A stretch of 64,000 nt of DNA from a virus. The notes beneath the pieces were generated by a model. That model searched no databases. It was given only the letters and a program-made list of their open reading frames with translations, and was not told where the DNA came from. The DNA lies in IMG/VR virus record IMGVR_UViG_3300046170_000162, positions 117,946 to 181,945 of that record. One strand, given 5' to 3'. A program made the translations under genes and the position numbers. Shown here one piece after another: positions 3,005 through 10,061 of the stretch. The stretch's first letter is position 1; every line of letters starts with the position of its first letter.

Positions 3005-3111
3005 TGTTCCTCACTCTTCCTTGCTGCGTAACCTAGTACGAATCCAAAAGAAAACAACACTAAGGTTATTAGTGCTGTTGCTAGGTTAAGTAAAATGCCT
3101 TCCGTACTCAT
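3001..3111 (-). CDS. Tiny single-pass membrane protein (36 aa)
   Basis: A 36-residue reading frame whose ATG overlaps the terminase stop (ATGA at 3108-3111) and whose TGA overlaps the next gene's GTG. Residues about 5-30 form one hydrophobic helix (ILLNLATALITLVLFSFGFV), followed by a short charged tail ending RKSEEQ. The two overlapping junctions and the clean membrane-protein composition argue that it is real despite its length. Role unknown; it is one of several single-helix proteins clustered around the terminase gene. Confidence 0.7.
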   Translation of the reverse strand: MSTEGILLNLATALITLVLFSFGFVLGYAARKSEEQ

Positions 3112-4754
3112 TTGTAATCCCACATATAGGAGCGATCGCCATATTCATCGGTATGCCAGACTTGTCCTTCGGGGTCTACGAATGATTCGTTAGTGAGACC
3201 ATCATCCATAAATCCAAAGGGTGCCATATCCGCTTCAATTGCTTCGCGTTGTTCTTGATACATTCTAGCACGAATGTCGTTATCGTGGAGTTCTTTAAAA
3301 TAATCCTGTACTGCCAACCAAGAGAACATCACAAGACACATAGCAAGGTCATCGTTGCAACCTTCTTCTGCTGCCCACGACTGCCCTTTTTGAATGAAGG
3401 TAGTTAGTTCAGAGATAATATCATAATCACATAGAACTAACTTATCATCTTCTAGCAACTGCTTCAGGTTAGAACAACCAATCTTTTTAACAGAGGTTGA
3501 CATCTTGACACCCAGTTGTACCTTACCACCAGAGAATCCTTGACCGACAACTTGTCCTGCTCTACCACGCATTGCTGCCATTAGTAGATTGTCATACTCA
3601 AGATCATACTGTATAATATCTGCAACCTGACCACCAATGTCATTTATTTCTACAAGAATGTAAGCGTGGTTATATGCTCTTGCAACCTGACAAATAATAT
3701 CAGGGAATAACATAGGTTTAACTTCATTATTTCTATACTTAGCAACTAACTTATATGGAACGGTAGTTGTATCGAACAGTGTGAATGCACTGTAGTCTCC
3801 ATCAATACCTCTTGCTACGTCCACTGTCATCGTATAATTATGTTCCGCTTCTGGTTTACTGAATACATCAAGACCATTTTGTTTTTCTATTGGTTCGTCA
3901 TATGTCATCACTCTCAACTTACTGGGAGAGATCAGAGTATCTACAGATCCAAGGAACTCACATTCAAACTCAACACGGAACTGTTGTTCACTTGTGTTAC
4001 GGATTGTTTGTGCTTTCCAATCAGCATCTCTTCCTGGTACCTGAGACCAGTGAACTTCTGTAGGGATATATTCATTAGTACCACGCTCTGCATCGTGCCA
4101 GAGTTTGTAGTACATATTCATCCCGTGAGGGGTAGAGATGATAATAACCTTAGTGGATTTACCAGAAGAAATAGTAGGATAGACAGAACTAAAAAACTGA
4201 TCTGCAATGTTATTCGGAACGAACGCGAATTCGTCCAGAAATATGACGTTAAAAGACATACCCCTGACGGCACTAGCGCTAGTAGATGCAGCAAGGAGTT
4301 TACTTCCGTTCTCCAATTCCACTGACCCTTTGTTCCAACCAATAATACCTTGCTGCATCCATTTAGGAAGATTCTCATAACTGAGTTGTAAACGTCCAAG
4401 CATTTCTCGTGCAGTTGCTGCTTTGTTTGCGAGGATTGCGACATTGACGTTATCGTTAAAGATTACATACCATAATAGATATGCGGTAACAACCGTTGAC
4501 TTACCACTTTGTCTTGGTAACTTAGCAATATTAAATCTATTCTCGTGGAATCTATCTACCATCTCCTCTTGGAAATCGTACAGATTAAATGGGATGACAC
4601 CCTCATCCAGCGACACAATTTTAATGTATGTCTTAATAAAGTAAATAGGATCACCCGCACATTTAATAAACTCCTTCACCTGTTTGGGTGTGAAGTTAGT
4701 ATGTACGTTTGCCTTCTTTAAATTGGGGTTGCCTAGATATGCATCAAGACCCAT
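3108..4754 (-). CDS. 17: Terminase large subunit gp17
   Basis: ATP-driven DNA packaging motor and headful nuclease, which docks on the portal during head filling. The N-terminal ATPase has Walker A RQSGKST (residues 81-87), Walker B VIFLDE (170-175) and a coupling motif IISTPHG (about 205-211). The C-terminal RNase H-like nuclease has acidic residues D312 (TVDVARG), E369 (LVEIND) and D468/D469 (GCNDDLA). At 548 residues it is slightly shorter than T4 gp17 (610). It overlaps a membrane-protein gene at the start and a 36-codon gene at the stop. In T4 it directly follows gene 16; here an islet of about 4 kb separates them. Confidence 0.97.
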   Translation of the reverse strand: MGLDAYLGNPNLKKANVHTNFTPKQVKEFIKCAGDPIYFIKTYIKIVSLDEGVIPFNLYDFQEEMVDRFHENRFNIAKLPRQSGKSTVVTAYLLWYVIFNDNVNVAILANKAATAREMLGRLQLSYENLPKWMQQGIIGWNKGSVELENGSKLLAASTSASAVRGMSFNVIFLDEFAFVPNNIADQFFSSVYPTISSGKSTKVIIISTPHGMNMYYKLWHDAERGTNEYIPTEVHWSQVPGRDADWKAQTIRNTSEQQFRVEFECEFLGSVDTLISPSKLRVMTYDEPIEKQNGLDVFSKPEAEHNYTMTVDVARGIDGDYSAFTLFDTTTVPYKLVAKYRNNEVKPMLFPDIICQVARAYNHAYILVEINDIGGQVADIIQYDLEYDNLLMAAMRGRAGQVVGQGFSGGKVQLGVKMSTSVKKIGCSNLKQLLEDDKLVLCDYDIISELTTFIQKGQSWAAEEGCNDDLAMCLVMFSWLAVQDYFKELHDNDIRARMYQEQREAIEADMAPFGFMDDGLTNESFVDPEGQVWHTDEYGDRSYMWDYK

Positions 4755-5221: not shown

Positions 5222-5683
5222 TTATTCAGTAAGTGTGCCTCGTGCTCTACGAAGTTGTCTTAATTCTTCAAAGTCTTTTTGTTTTGTGCCGCCATCATAT
5301 GGCCAAGCATAACCCTCACCAATCATTTCTTCGTTGATTGACACTGACTCGTCCCCAATATATAACCATCCAAGAAGACGCCCATACTTACCGACACCAC
5401 CAACAAGTTCAGTCCTAATAAACAACTGATCATCACCAGCAATGGTTGATTCAAGTTTACCTTTGAGCCAATTTGTTGCATCGATACCAAGTGCTTTCTC
5501 TTCTAGATTACGGGTTCTTTTCTCAGGAGTATCGACTCCTGCAATTCTTACCCGTTCTTTTTTATATAGTTCGAAACCAAGATCGATTGTTACGTCAATA
5601 GTGTCCCCGTCAAGGACTCTGTTGATCTCCGTCACTCGGAAGTTGTAACAACTCTTCCTGCTCGGGGGCACCATTTCTGCCAT
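5222..5683 (-). CDS. Staphylococcal nuclease-like (SNase/thermonuclease) endonuclease
   Basis: A Ca-dependent phosphodiesterase fold, 153 residues. The SNase catalytic set appears intact: D25/D27 in the DGDTID motif, R46, D51 and E54 in VRIAGVDTPE, and R102 in KYGR. No secretion signal is present. The start at 5683 has AAGGAG nine bases upstream. This start lies inside the end of the preceding membrane-protein gene (74-base overlap in another frame). Possible roles are host-DNA degradation or DNA processing near packaging; the sequence does not decide between them. Confidence 0.88.
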   Translation of the reverse strand: MAEMVPPSRKSCYNFRVTEINRVLDGDTIDVTIDLGFELYKKERVRIAGVDTPEKRTRNLEEKALGIDATNWLKGKLESTIAGDDQLFIRTELVGGVGKYGRLLGWLYIGDESVSINEEMIGEGYAWPYDGGTKQKDFEELRQLRRARGTLTE

Positions 5684-6165: not shown

Positions 6166-6489
6166 TTAGTTTACGTGAATTGTTCCAGTCATTCCTGCTC
6201 CTTGATGTGGACCACAAAAGAATTCGTAGTCTCCAGCATCAGCAAAAAGGATGTCTTGAGATTCACCAGGGGAGAACATAAGAGACTCTCTGGATAAATC
6301 TGCTCGACCTTCTACAATGATATTATGTGGAGGCAACATATTATTCACAAAGTGAACAGTATCACCTGCAGATATGGTAATATCGTTAGGTTCGAAAACT
6401 AGGTTTCCATTGCTTCCCATAGTTACATCAACAGCATACACAGGGAATGCAAAGAACAACGTAGCAACGAATGCTAAAATGAACTTCAT
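6166..6489 (-). CDS. petE: Plastocyanin (type-1 copper electron carrier)
   Basis: A luminal copper protein that carries electrons from cytochrome b6f to photosystem I, known as an auxiliary metabolic gene in cyanophages. A signal peptide (MKFILAFVATLFFAFPVYA) is followed by an 88-residue cupredoxin domain with all four copper ligands: H55 (PPHNI), C92, H95 and M100 (FFCGPHQGAGM). The ATG at 6489 is chosen because it begins a clean signal peptide; a TTG five codons upstream is less likely. It is presumably exported to the thylakoid lumen to keep photosynthetic electron flow going during infection. A sigma70-like promoter lies upstream of the preceding gene. Confidence 0.93.
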   Translation of the reverse strand: MKFILAFVATLFFAFPVYAVDVTMGSNGNLVFEPNDITISAGDTVHFVNNMLPPHNIIVEGRADLSRESLMFSPGESQDILFADAGDYEFFCGPHQGAGMTGTIHVN

Positions 6490-6546
6490 ACTTAAGTTTA
6501 TCAACTAGAAGTATTTAACTGTGTACAAAAATGAGTTTATGGTTAG

Positions 6547-6925: not shown

Positions 6926-7462
6926 TTAGCACTTCCACTTGCGTAATGCTAATGCTTTACGAGTGGGTTTACCTTTCTCATCTTTCATCGGTCCTTTGAC
7001 TCCACCCATTCTAGCGCAGAAAGATCTTTTCCTAGGACCCCCTTCAGGTTGAGGTGCTTTAAGATCAGACCCAGGATTTTCTCTCTCATAAGATTTTCTG
7101 CCCTTTTCGTTGAGTCCACCTTCTTTATTCTTTCCTTCCTTTCTTTGCCAAGCACTTTCATTTACGTCCTTGTCCTGTAGGAAGGAGACAGGAGATTTTT
7201 CTGGTTTCTTTTTCTTCTTACTATCCTTACCACCAAGTGCTGCCTTAGCAACTTTACCTGCTGAGTATGGATTATCTTTCTCTTTATTTCTCTTCGTATC
7301 ATTACGAATCTCTCTCATCTTTAATGCGTGAGAGATCTTTCTTCTGGCAGAAGGTCTACCAATAGGAGGATTAGTTTTATCAATTGCTCGCGCTACAGAG
7401 AGTCCCACACCTTCTTCGATGGGGTCATCTTTAGTGTCTTGGAATTCTCTGAACGATTTCAT
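6926..7462 (-). CDS. Lys/Arg-rich DUF6321-like protein, probable internal head protein
   Basis: 178 residues, strongly basic. The C-terminal part (about 103-178: SAWQRKEGKNKEGG, NPGSDLKAPQPEGGPRKRSF, CARMGGVKGPM) matches what I know as DUF6321, found in cyanophage proteins. The N-terminus MKSFREFQ resembles the T4 capsid-targeting peptide (MKTYQEF), and PIEE-GVG at residues 14-20 fits the gp21 prohead protease consensus (I/L)xE before a small residue. Directly after that site comes SVARAIDK, similar to a motif in the gene at 7595-8278. I infer packaging inside the head with maturation cleavage. Start overlaps the upstream stop (ATGA). Confidence 0.8.
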   Translation of the reverse strand: MKSFREFQDTKDDPIEEGVGLSVARAIDKTNPPIGRPSARRKISHALKMREIRNDTKRNKEKDNPYSAGKVAKAALGGKDSKKKKKPEKSPVSFLQDKDVNESAWQRKEGKNKEGGLNEKGRKSYERENPGSDLKAPQPEGGPRKRSFCARMGGVKGPMKDEKGKPTRKALALRKWKC

Positions 7463-7602
7463 TTTTCCTTGTTGTTTTTAGGGTTGGATGCACAATTTGC
7501 TTCGTGCTTTTCGATCCAGGTTTTAGGACGCCAATGTCCTTGGGGTGAAGTTAATCCACAATACTGGCATACCCACTGTGCGTTGTCGTTTTGATCAGCC
7601 AT
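7459..7602 (-). CDS. Tiny zinc-finger protein (47 aa)
   Basis: Starts MADQNDNAQWVCQYCG. Cys12 and Cys15, then H21, H31 and C35, give a plausible C2HC-type zinc site. The ATG overlaps the stop of the preceding gene (ATGGCTGA) and the TGA overlaps the next ATG, so it is translationally coupled on both sides. A longer upstream extension of the frame merely overlaps the preceding gene and lacks support. Probably nucleic-acid or protein binding; specific role unknown. Confidence 0.78.
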   Translation of the reverse strand: MADQNDNAQWVCQYCGLTSPQGHWRPKTWIEKHEANCASNPKNNKEK

Positions 7603-8278
7603 AATGAAACTTTCTGTCCTTAGATTTAGATGGTAGTTTGCCTGAACGCACCTTAGTGGATGATGTTTCACCATATCCTGCAGGGTGCTTTCCTGCTTTT
7701 GTTTTGCCAACGCTGTCAGACTTTGCCTTACTTCCCTTATCTGTGTAGTGAAGTTTAGCAGACTTGTCCTTGTCTTTAGTAATCACAGATTCTTGTCCGT
7801 GCTTACGACCCAGACGGCGCATCACTTTGCCGAATCTACGTTTCGACATTTTATCGGGTTTGGTAGTGTGGTACGAAACCTCACGACCTGTCTCACCTGA
7901 ATCATATTTATATTCTCCAACACCTTTCTTGTGACCAATACCGTGCTTCTTCAGACCTTTCTCAAGATCTTTTCTTTTACCACGGTTCTTCTTTTCATCA
8001 GAACCACGGTCAGCACTGATATGTCCAGTCACTTTGGTTTTGGATTTATCCATAGCACGGGCGAGACCACCCTCGGAGATAAACTCTCCGAATCCCATTA
8101 TAGCATACGATTGTGTTTGTAGGTGCATATCGGTAGAACCCTTTTGCTGAACAGACTTTCTTTGGAGTTGCAACTTCCTAAGGTTGATCATAAGTTGCCT
8201 GCGGTCTAGAAGTTGTTTGGTCTTCTTGATCGCCTGATTCTTTGGATCTTTAACTTCTTTGTTGGGTTGCGCTTCCAT
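7595..8278 (-). CDS. Lys-rich protein with likely prohead-protease site
   Basis: 227 residues, very basic, with no Cys and no membrane segment. The start at ATG 8278 follows the preceding stop by one base. Residues about 60-80 read MGFGEFISE-GGLARAMDK; FISE-GG fits the gp21 cleavage consensus (I/L)xE before G. The downstream domain (HISADRGS, GREVSYHT, MRRLGRKHGQESVI, LHYT) is one I have seen in cyanophage genomes without a known role. The post-cleavage motif is shared with the protein at 6926-7462. A packaged, DNA-associated head protein is the best inference. The roughly 60-residue N-terminal part would be removed if cleavage occurs. Confidence 0.75.
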   Translation of the reverse strand: MEAQPNKEVKDPKNQAIKKTKQLLDRRQLMINLRKLQLQRKSVQQKGSTDMHLQTQSYAIMGFGEFISEGGLARAMDKSKTKVTGHISADRGSDEKKNRGKRKDLEKGLKKHGIGHKKGVGEYKYDSGETGREVSYHTTKPDKMSKRRFGKVMRRLGRKHGQESVITKDKDKSAKLHYTDKGSKAKSDSVGKTKAGKHPAGYGETSSTKVRSGKLPSKSKDRKFHYG

Positions 8279-8279
8279 A

Positions 8280-8831
8280 TTAACCACCAATTACTTGGAC
8301 TTGCTCGACAACAACATCGGCACTACCAGCAGTGAGTTTCACAGTTCTCTTGATCATAGGAACAGTGTTTGCAACGATGTCTGCATCGCTTAAGACATAT
8401 GCAGAACCTGCACCAGATGCATCAATATCAGTTGTGATTGTCTGGTCAGTTACAGCAGTTACCTTCTTACCACCTGAAGCGGCAGATTCAAAGTCTGTTC
8501 CAAAACCATTTGTATCACCACCATCAACTGTTTCGATATAGTCACCGACTGAGAATGTATGTCTTCCCCCTGCTCCTGTACCGTTGCCCGCTCCACCAAC
8601 GCTGAAAACTGCTGTGGCAGCATTAGTAGCGGCGTGGACGCTAATGTTTTTTGATTTCCCACAGGAAAGTAATACTGCTTCACCTGCTGCAAGTGTGATT
8701 GCAGGACCAGCATTGAATTTAATGGTTGAAGCGGAAGCAGCATACGCCCGTACAACACCAGTTTTAACGACAATATAAGCGGTACCTGATCCACTCACTG
8801 TCGTAGTATCTAATACATTTAATACAGACAT
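8280..8831 (-). CDS. Probable virion structural protein, beta-rich
   Basis: 183 residues, rich in Gly, Ala, Thr and Val with alternating beta-strand pattern and low Lys content. It starts MSVLNVLDTTTVSGSG and includes a glycine run (GGAGNGTGAGG) at about residues 79-89. Its own late promoter (8856-8863) lies just upstream, implying high late expression. Composition and position next to the neck and terminase genes suggest a small head or tail decoration protein. No exact family recognised. Confidence 0.78.
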   Translation of the reverse strand: MSVLNVLDTTTVSGSGTAYIVVKTGVVRAYAASASTIKFNAGPAITLAAGEAVLLSCGKSKNISVHAATNAATAVFSVGGAGNGTGAGGRHTFSVGDYIETVDGGDTNGFGTDFESAASGGKKVTAVTDQTITTDIDASGAGSAYVLSDADIVANTVPMIKRTVKLTAGSADVVVEQVQVIGG

Positions 8832-8854: not shown

Positions 8855-9304
8855 CTATTTATCAGATTTTTGTTGCTTCAGGAACTTTGCGAGTTCCGCT
8901 GTTGAACCAACGAACATTGTATTGTTAGTAACGTTCTGTGCTGCTTTGTTCTTCGGTCCTTCTTCAATCTCCATCATTTTCTTATGAAGGTCCGCTAACT
9001 TATCCGCAGTATCGGCAACGTTCTTAATTAAATTACCAGCAACTTCGTATGCTCTAGGTGAGTCAGACTCTTGTGCCAACTCAAGAATACCATCAACTGC
9101 CTCCTGACCTTTCTCGATCAGTGCGTAAAAGTTTCCACGAGAATACTCATAGTCCTTGACCTGATGATCAGTGACATTTGGTACAATTGAATTATTCTTT
9201 TGTGGTTTACCTTGTTCTACCAAGGATGTTTCCACATCAAGAGCATCTTCAATACCGTCGTATTTACTCGTCTGCCCCTGTGACTGGGTTTCTTGATTTG
9301 CCAT
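8855..9304 (-). CDS. 16: Terminase small subunit gp16
   Basis: A DNA-recognition partner of gp17 in packaging. The helical core (about residues 60-115: YALIEKGQEAVDGILELAQE, then VADTADKLADLHKKMMEIEE) and the C-terminal motif TNNTMFVGSTAELAKFLK match the gp16 family. The ATG at 9304 (MANQETQ) is preferred; a start at 9346 would add 14 residues and lengthen the overlap with gp15. Even so, it overlaps the gp15 end by 41 bases. Length (149 residues) is close to T4 gp16 (164). Confidence 0.88.
   Translation of the reverse strand: MANQETQSQGQTSKYDGIEDALDVETSLVEQGKPQKNNSIVPNVTDHQVKDYEYSRGNFYALIEKGQEAVDGILELAQESDSPRAYEVAGNLIKNVADTADKLADLHKKMMEIEEGPKNKAAQNVTNNTMFVGSTAELAKFLKQQKSDK
8856..8863 (-). 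promoter_or_regulatory. Late promoter (GATAAATA) of the 8280-8831 gene
   Basis: GATAAATA on the minus strand, about 25 bases before the ATG at 8831, overlapping the stop codon of gp16. It matches the T4-type late promoter in seven of eight positions. Confidence 0.65.
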
Positions 9305-10061
9305 CTGAGAATTCACTATAGAGTTCATTAAATCCGAAGTTATCATCTGGATCTGCAGTGAGAGGATCAGGTTGAACTGTGTACCTCATCTCGCGTGCTG
9401 CAGTTGTCTTGGAATCCAGTGCAGTATCCACGATCGATTTCTTAATAAGTTTATTGGTAACGTCAGAGACAGGACCATAAACATATGTTTTAGCAGAGAA
9501 CGAAAGTGTATAGATTAGAGTTCTACGTGTGGTGTAATCACCTTCATAGTCATCTTCATAAACAACTGAGTTCAATGTGACTGGAAAGTCTTTAACTTCG
9601 CCGATCGCTTCCTGAAGATTCAGGGTTATGTTGAACATCGGTTGAAAGAATGGTAAGATCTGTTCAAGAATCTGGAGACCATCATCTTGGTTCTTTGCCA
9701 TAATCGATAGTTCAAAGTCCACATTGTATGGGACTGGCATAAACGATTTTCTAGTCTTGCTGTCAGTACCCGTATAACGAATCACCTGTGTGGGTGATAC
9801 TTTTCTGGTAGCATCATAAGCAAAACCAGAGATCTCAAAAGAGATTCTAGGTAGTGTGATCTGTACAGCATCTTTAGTTGTAAGATCTCCTACTTGCTTA
9901 AGACGTGCAAGGAACTTATCTTTAGGACCATATGCCAAGGGTACTTTCATAACCTCACTTCTACTACCTTCCGTACGCTTGATTTCAATATTATTGAACA
10001 GTGTACCGAAAGCAATAACAGTCTTTCTAAAAATTTCGTTGTAAGAATAGGTTCCTAACAT
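9264..10061 (-). CDS. 15: Tail sheath stabiliser gp15
   Basis: A 265-residue protein that caps the head-proximal end of the tail and joins it to the neck. It starts MLGTYSYNEIFRKTVIAFGT, which together with RISFEISGFAYDATRK, VPYNVDFELSIMAKNQDDGL and LQEAIGEVKDFPVTLNSV is characteristic of the gp15 family. It abuts gp14 (shared base at 10061), keeping the T4 order 13-14-15-16. Length is about that of T4 gp15 (272). Confidence 0.95.
   Translation of the reverse strand: MLGTYSYNEIFRKTVIAFGTLFNNIEIKRTEGSRSEVMKVPLAYGPKDKFLARLKQVGDLTTKDAVQITLPRISFEISGFAYDATRKVSPTQVIRYTGTDSKTRKSFMPVPYNVDFELSIMAKNQDDGLQILEQILPFFQPMFNITLNLQEAIGEVKDFPVTLNSVVYEDDYEGDYTTRRTLIYTLSFSAKTYVYGPVSDVTNKLIKKSIVDTALDSKTTAAREMRYTVQPDPLTADPDDNFGFNELYSEFSDGKSRNPVTGADE

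Follow-up and report, generated by a model that had tools for sequence, protein, structure and literature searches.

The window analysed here is a 64-kb stretch of a 181,945-base virus record, and positions are given in window coordinates unless they are prefixed C1. The gene order in the window matches that of T4-like cyanophages (Kyanoviridae), and its source is a virus of marine cyanobacteria, a T4-like cyanophage. The minus strand carries a late block comprising gp13, gp14, gp15, gp16, a GC403-type protein, protein 2, a 47-aa ORF and protein 1, with gp17 located beyond it. The relevant features, all on the minus strand, are as follows.

3108..4754, minus: gp17, large terminase (sequence and synteny)
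6926..7462, minus: protein 1, 178 aa, consisting of an IPI-like tag, a GVGLxVARAIDK module and DUF6321
6935..7135, minus: DUF6321 domain (PF19846) of protein 1, spanning residues 110-176 (Pfam 8e-25; 87.7 bits, cut-off 28.5)
7412..7462, minus: targeting sequence of protein 1, MKSFREFQDTKDDPIEE, with a predicted cut after E17 (layout as in T4 IPI; conserved in orthologues)
7459..7602, minus: small ORF between proteins 1 and 2, 47 aa from an inner ATG (ORF list)
7595..8278, minus: protein 2, 227 aa, consisting of a RRQLMINLRKLQLQ module, an internal targeting/cleavage site, a SAM-lyase-family domain and a basic tail
7598..8071, minus: predicted mature protein 2, 158 aa (residues 70-227), with a net charge of +27
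7691..8020, minus: SAM-lyase-family match (PF23780), residues 87-196 of protein 2 (Pfam 1.4e-7; 32 bits, cut-off 28)
8072..8098, minus: internal targeting/cleavage site MGFGEFISE of protein 2, with a predicted cut after E69 (homologue alignment)
8280..8831, minus: neighbour upstream of protein 2, like S-SM1 SSM1_114 (T4-GC 403; place and sequence, by eye)
8855..9346, minus: gp16, small terminase (synteny)

An earlier, sequence-only reading of this DNA had singled out two very basic, Lys-rich ORFs near terminase and neck genes, and in this it was accurate: letters and positions (6926-7462 and 7595-8278, both on the minus strand) are correct, the net charges (K+R minus D+E) are +23 for protein 1 and +33 for protein 2, and the gp13-gp16 and gp17 neighbourhood is as described (cf. 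P-SSM4, P-SSM7 and S-SM1). Both members of the pair are present, and a third small ORF lies between them; the two Cys pairs of this 47-aa product suggest that it may be a zinc-binding peptide. A protein-2 homologue occupies the same place in the annotated genomes of P-SSM4 and P-SSM7, and a DUF6321 protein is found at the equivalent place in that of S-SM1. A plastocyanin-like ORF (6166-6504) and a thermonuclease-like ORF (5222-5683) lie between the pair and gp17; the corresponding interval of S-SM1 contains petE together with a PF00565 gene. The late-promoter-like patterns CTAAATA and MTATAAATA showed no excess over chance, and PADLOC and NCBIfam searches gave no match.

The SAM-lyase-family domain of protein 2

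Phage SAM lyases are trimers with active sites at the subunit interfaces, and they convert SAM to MTA and homoserine lactone. Protein 2, whose family had been missed by the earlier reading along with the identity of protein 1 as a DUF6321 protein, almost certainly belongs to this family, as judged by profile and structure model. The Pfam profile PF23780 (S-AdoMet lyase) scores protein 2 at 32-33 bits against the curated cut-off of 28 and matches 22 of the 22 members of a diverse protein-2 alignment (best 6e-22); at 5e-41 it also picks up the SAM hydrolase of T3 type annotated in Klebsiella phage 31. The two groups are bridged by S-CREM2 gp6, which is connected by tblastn to S-SZBM1 (3e-8) and to Klebsiella phage 31 (6e-4). 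A PF23780 search of the phage's own genome missed protein 2, although a direct scan of the protein places it above the cut-off, and sequence-only PDB searches with protein 2 and with profiles of its domain returned no SAM-lyase match, which counts against the assignment.

A first structure model of protein 2, built from 8 sequences, was too weak (pLDDT 49.6), with SAM lyases merely among many ferredoxin-like matches. The model from 22 sequences, with an overall pLDDT of 67.5 and core blocks mostly at 66-88, shows a beta-alpha-beta-beta-alpha-beta arrangement, i.e. the ferredoxin/PII-like fold of Svi3-3 and T3 SAMase, with the long basic tail modelled at low confidence. In Foldseek searches the only PDB matches at E<=1e-3 were two structures of Svi3-3, 6zm9 (2e-4) and 6znb (4e-4), followed by T3 SAMase (7ock, 5.6e-3), with a probability of 1.00 for all three. 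It has to be noted that the TM-scores are low (0.3-0.5) and the model is moderate, so that the assignment rests on the profile, the fold search and the residues together. In Svi3-3, SAM is contacted by G56, Y58, E69 and Q104 (PMC7877911). Their equivalents in protein 2 are G121, Y123, E133 and Q162, none of which changes in any of the 140 distinct homologues, many of which are closely related and thus not independent; E133 was assigned by its E-x-[ST] motif, the aligner shifting it by one position relative to T3 SAMase. The dN/dS of protein 2 is approximately 0.13-0.19 against relatives at usable distance, indicating purifying selection, and protein 2 may well be active on SAM or SAM-AMP.

An unlikely alternative reading accepts packaging and cutting but treats the SAM-lyase fold as a stable or ligand-binding module, both proteins serving mainly to neutralise and organise the DNA in the head. 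Their strong positive charge, the long basic low-confidence tail of protein 2 and its DUF6321 partner would fit such a role, and non-catalytic ligand binding is common among PII-type folds, PII and CutA proteins being also among the Foldseek matches of the model; a charge neutraliser would, however, not need four SAM-contacting residues, which are unchanged across 140 distinct and partly distant sequences.

Outside phages the PF23780-type domain is nearly absent, with 3 loci in the 84,980 genomes of the scanned collection, and these three are suspected to be phage sequence.

Predicted targeting and cleavage sites

Protein 2 reads ...MGFGEFISE↓GGLARAMDK (the arrow marking a predicted cut), with the SAM-lyase-family domain directly following the site. 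The pattern [ILVMF]xE↓[GSTA] stands directly before the domain in 140 of 140 distinct homologues, as against 0.25% of the other positions in those proteins, which does not amount to 140 independent events because many of the homologues are closely related; the group spans Kyanoviridae to Campylobacter and Alishewanella phages. The full context F/Y..F/Y/W[ILVMF]xE is immediately adjacent to the domain in 90 of the 140. Where protein 2 has its site, homologues read SFGEFISE, SFKQFLAE, TYKEFIAE and similar sequences. Distant homologues start MKTYKEFMQE↓SS and others read TYKEFIAE↓G, near-copies of the start of T4 IPII and IPIII, MKTYQEFIAE↓A. Shuffling either protein yields a bare [IL]xE[AGS] in approximately 21% of copies, so that this pattern is weak evidence on its own, whereas the full F..F[ILFMV]xE context occurs in 0.4% of shuffled copies of protein 2. 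Hypothetical proteins of Campylobacter phage CP220 (L340:2414-3043) and Alishewanella phage Slickus01 (L341:2453-3058), which match the SAM-lyase profile at 5e-18 and 4e-13, also carry xxE↓SSL directly before the domain.

The earlier reading had proposed protease sites of the form (I/L)xE before a small residue in both proteins. The sites are there, IEE↓G in protein 1 and ISE↓G in protein 2; that of protein 1 is near its start, and in protein 2 the site is internal, after residue 69, its tag covering residues 61-69, in contrast to the N-terminal tags of many homologues and of T4, the difference from T4 being a point against the T4-like reading. The position varies across the family, from N-terminal (P-SSM2, L096 and most of L260-L339) through the middle, as in the window, to deep within ORFs of 400-790 aa. 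The possibility that translation generally begins at the internal MGFGEF of protein 2 was rejected, since Met is missing at this position in several homologues (IKSFKQFLAE, IKPFGQFITE) and the part of the protein upstream of the tag is conserved in relatives. The gp21-type protease that the proposal called for elsewhere in the genome is encoded by this record, at a position beyond the window (PF03420, C1:114760-115206, E 5e-37).

Protein 1 begins MKSFREFQDTKDDPIEE↓GVGLSVARAIDK, a layout like that of T4 IPI, MKTFKEFTSTTTPVSTITE↓A, which bears out the T4-like targeting start ascribed to it, and it ends in DUF6321. The canonical F..F[IL]xE site has been lost from protein 1, which depends on IEE↓G instead, a further point against the T4-like reading. 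Its orthologues keep MKSF.[EQ]F and xxE↓GVGL, reading MKSFSQFINE or MKSFSQFVAE and then DE↓GVGLxVARAIDKTNPP, and many other DUF6321 proteins start with a bare tag, e.g. MKSFDEFITE↓DWQKK or MTFDEFITE↓AKSAAWQRK. The T7-like cyanophage S-CBP4 carries a gene matching DUF6321, positioned between its capsid assembly gene and its major capsid gene. The N-terminal part of protein 1 had no match in the phage collection, with relatives existing in viral contigs, and DUF6321 is not named in the literature searched. Protein 1 is probably the DNA-bound DUF6321 partner of protein 2, and both proteins are likely to be packaged and cut.

Links between the proteins and presence of homologues in virions

The sequence-only reading had suggested that the pair may be a new family, with ARAxDK shared after the cut; ARAxDK as the mark of one common family is now very improbable. 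ARAxDK is present in fewer than 0.1% of shuffled copies of either protein, and the suggested search of the record for further copies found AR[AGS]xDK in no other ORF, both of which speak for a shared mark. Against this, the exact motif is kept in only 6 of 140 protein-2 homologues and thus is not the link between the two proteins; in protein 1 it belongs to a separate module, EGVGLxVARAIDKTNPPxGRPS, and the two proteins fall into different Pfam families. What does connect them is the tags, a common RKQLMLN-type module and the existence of ORFs in which both domains are fused. This module, present in protein 2, recurs in 15 ORFs with DUF6321 as well as 3 with both domains, and the SAM-lyase domain and DUF6321 share a single ORF in 4 contigs (7 loci, three contigs being counted twice, L037/L192, L039/L193 and L048/L198, and the fourth being L244). 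The upstream parts of the long versions contain 295 [IL]xE sites as compared with 146 in shuffled copies (53 related proteins, not independent), an approximately 2-fold excess, as would be expected of a cut polyprotein.

In many relatives (L005:3390-5510, L050, L047, L055 and L103) the SAM-lyase domain ends a very basic, polyprotein-like ORF of 550-790 aa, built from recurring modules, one of which resembles DUF3008. Different modules begin alike after the predicted cut, namely E↓GLLSRIVDKVDK, E↓GIGMTMANAL, E↓SSLSRIKSK and E↓GVGLxVARAIDK (L254, a 227-aa ORF; L264, a 291-aa ORF), and a helix following the small residue may play a part in packaging or in ejection.

Homologues of both proteins have been detected in virions of S-CREM2. 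Published mass spectrometry of the purified phage (PMC10665884) lists gp6, the SAM-lyase homologue (19 unique peptides), alongside gp137, which belongs to DUF6321 by profile (4 unique peptides). A T4-like tag within the first 20 residues is present in 4 S-CREM2 proteins, 4/4 of which are in the virion list (p=0.003), and the strict form of the tag in 3/3 (p=0.013), these p-values being merely descriptive because the S-CREM2 N-termini had been seen before the pattern was written; relaxing the tag to F..F, with no Glu required, did not predict detection in the same list (6/18, p=0.23). Tag-like N-termini are also seen in S-CREM2 virion proteins reported as non-structural or hypothetical (L179:838-10332; gp6 and gp12-gp15): FDSFLEE in gp6, RFASFMAE↓A in gp12 (annotated as Cas9-like), LHSFLTE in gp13, FDAFLTE in gp14 (kinase-like) and, further, FSSFLTE↓A in gp154. 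The other convincing tag in the window's own record, MKFSQFITE↓A, starts a cytidylyltransferase-like protein encoded outside the window (C1:78138-79310; L009:18138-19310), with PF01467 just below cut-off, and cytidylyltransferase-like proteins have been reported in virions of S-SM1 and S-CREM2.

These observations also bear on a third reading, in which protein 2 would be an enzyme of the SAM-lyase family, synthesized late for a metabolic role in the infected cell, its presence in virions being incidental and FISE↓GG a chance linker. The late gene position would suit such an enzyme, and T3 SAMase acts as a newly made early protein (PMC8406200). The reading is nonetheless improbable, given a cleavage consensus at the domain border in 140/140 homologues (T4-tag-like in most), the lack of such an extension in the T3-type enzyme of a phage outside the T4-like group, and the 19 peptides of the S-CREM2 homologue in virions. 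As to the earlier proposal of packaged, cleaved head proteins, its core is supported by the consensus, the IPII/IPIII-like tags and the occurrence of homologues of both proteins in the S-CREM2 virion list, and ARAxDK falls away as the family mark.

Proposed delivery and relation to known systems

The favoured interpretation, which we regard as rather likely, is that the two proteins are internal head proteins like those of T4, and that protein 2 releases a SAM-lyase-family domain delivered with the DNA. We infer the cutting, injection, catalytic activity, substrate and target in the scheme that follows. Both proteins would be synthesized late, and a targeting sequence ending in (I/L)xE would bring each into the scaffold core of the prohead, where the phage's gp21-type protease would cut after the Glu. 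The very basic mature proteins would stay in the head, bound to DNA, and enter the host together with it, so that they could act at once. Protein 2 would then most likely remove host S-adenosylmethionine or the SAM-AMP alarm molecule just after DNA entry, and this removal would blunt SAM-dependent defences, e.g. restriction-modification or BREX, both of which are neutralised by phage SAM lyases (PMC12255297). There are precedents in T4 IPI*, an injected anti-restriction protein (PMC3012670), and in the proposal of the S-CREM2 authors that the virion SAM hydrolase is injected against restriction (PMC10665884). The record also encodes a SAM user, a D12-class DNA adenine methylase (PF02086, 3.5e-32; C1:94985-95701, locus L346), outside the window; this enzyme of the phage needs SAM, which counts against the favoured reading and suggests that the removal of SAM would have to be brief or local. 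The wider version of the proposal, more tentative, is that a modular, polyprotein-like head proteome with interchangeable tags cut by gp21 delivers an active SAM or SAM-AMP lyase with the DNA, possibly achieving counter-defence without expression in the host.

The sequence-only reading had suggested a new family, and this needs qualification: the system is not wholly new, a virion SAM hydrolase having been published for S-CREM2, and what is new is the family-wide system. The domain family is known, the targeting principle is known and one virion example is published; their combination as a widespread modular system is new. Beyond the S-CREM2 work, the present analysis extends the family, derives a tag-and-cut rule, finds the active site intact and connects the domain with DUF6321 through shared modules. 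It unites the T4 internal proteins and the phage SAM lyases as one delivery system, and it would assign a function to "hypothetical" proteins in many isolated and uncultured marine phages, e.g. T4-GC 110 of P-SSM2 and P-SSM4. It also provides a simple rule for predicting head-borne cyanophage proteins, F..F[IL]xE before a small residue, and turns the single mass-spectrometry observation of S-CREM2 gp6 into a family-wide, testable hypothesis on cyanophages and SAM-dependent host defences.

Among known systems, the phage SAM lyases (T3 SAMase, 7ock; Svi3-3, 6zm9 and 6znb; PF23780) share with protein 2 a common profile, the predicted fold and the Gly/Tyr/Glu/Gln residues. Protein 2 differs from them in being very basic, in its long basic tail and in its place among late head and tail genes, and its domain follows a T4-type targeting/cleavage site, an extension which T3 SAMase does not have. 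Type III CRISPR systems and phages also have SAM-AMP lyases (PMC12255297), which have their PII-like lyase superfamily and an equivalent Glu and Gln in common with protein 2; they act on SAM-AMP, whereas protein 2 may act on SAM or on SAM-AMP. With the T4 internal proteins IPI, IPII and IPIII, for which likeness was judged at the level of the tag, the pair shares the layout MK[ST][FY].EF...(I/L)xE↓small, the basic character and a gp21-type protease, while the tag of protein 2 is internal and its cargo is an enzyme-family domain. Other DUF6321 (PF19846) proteins, including S-SM1 SSM1_115 and S-CREM2 gp137, contain the same domain as the C-terminus of protein 1, which in turn joins an IPI-like tag and the GVGLxVARAIDK module to it. 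A further counterpart of protein 2 is the virion "SAM hydrolase" gp6 of S-CREM2, a member of the same domain family with 35% identity in the domain. It has a T4-like start, MKDFDSFLEE, and is present in virions, and, unlike protein 2, it is encoded by a separate gene elsewhere in its genome; the sections of the S-CREM2 paper used here report no targeting tag or cleavage site, nor the Kyanoviridae family described above (PMC10665884).
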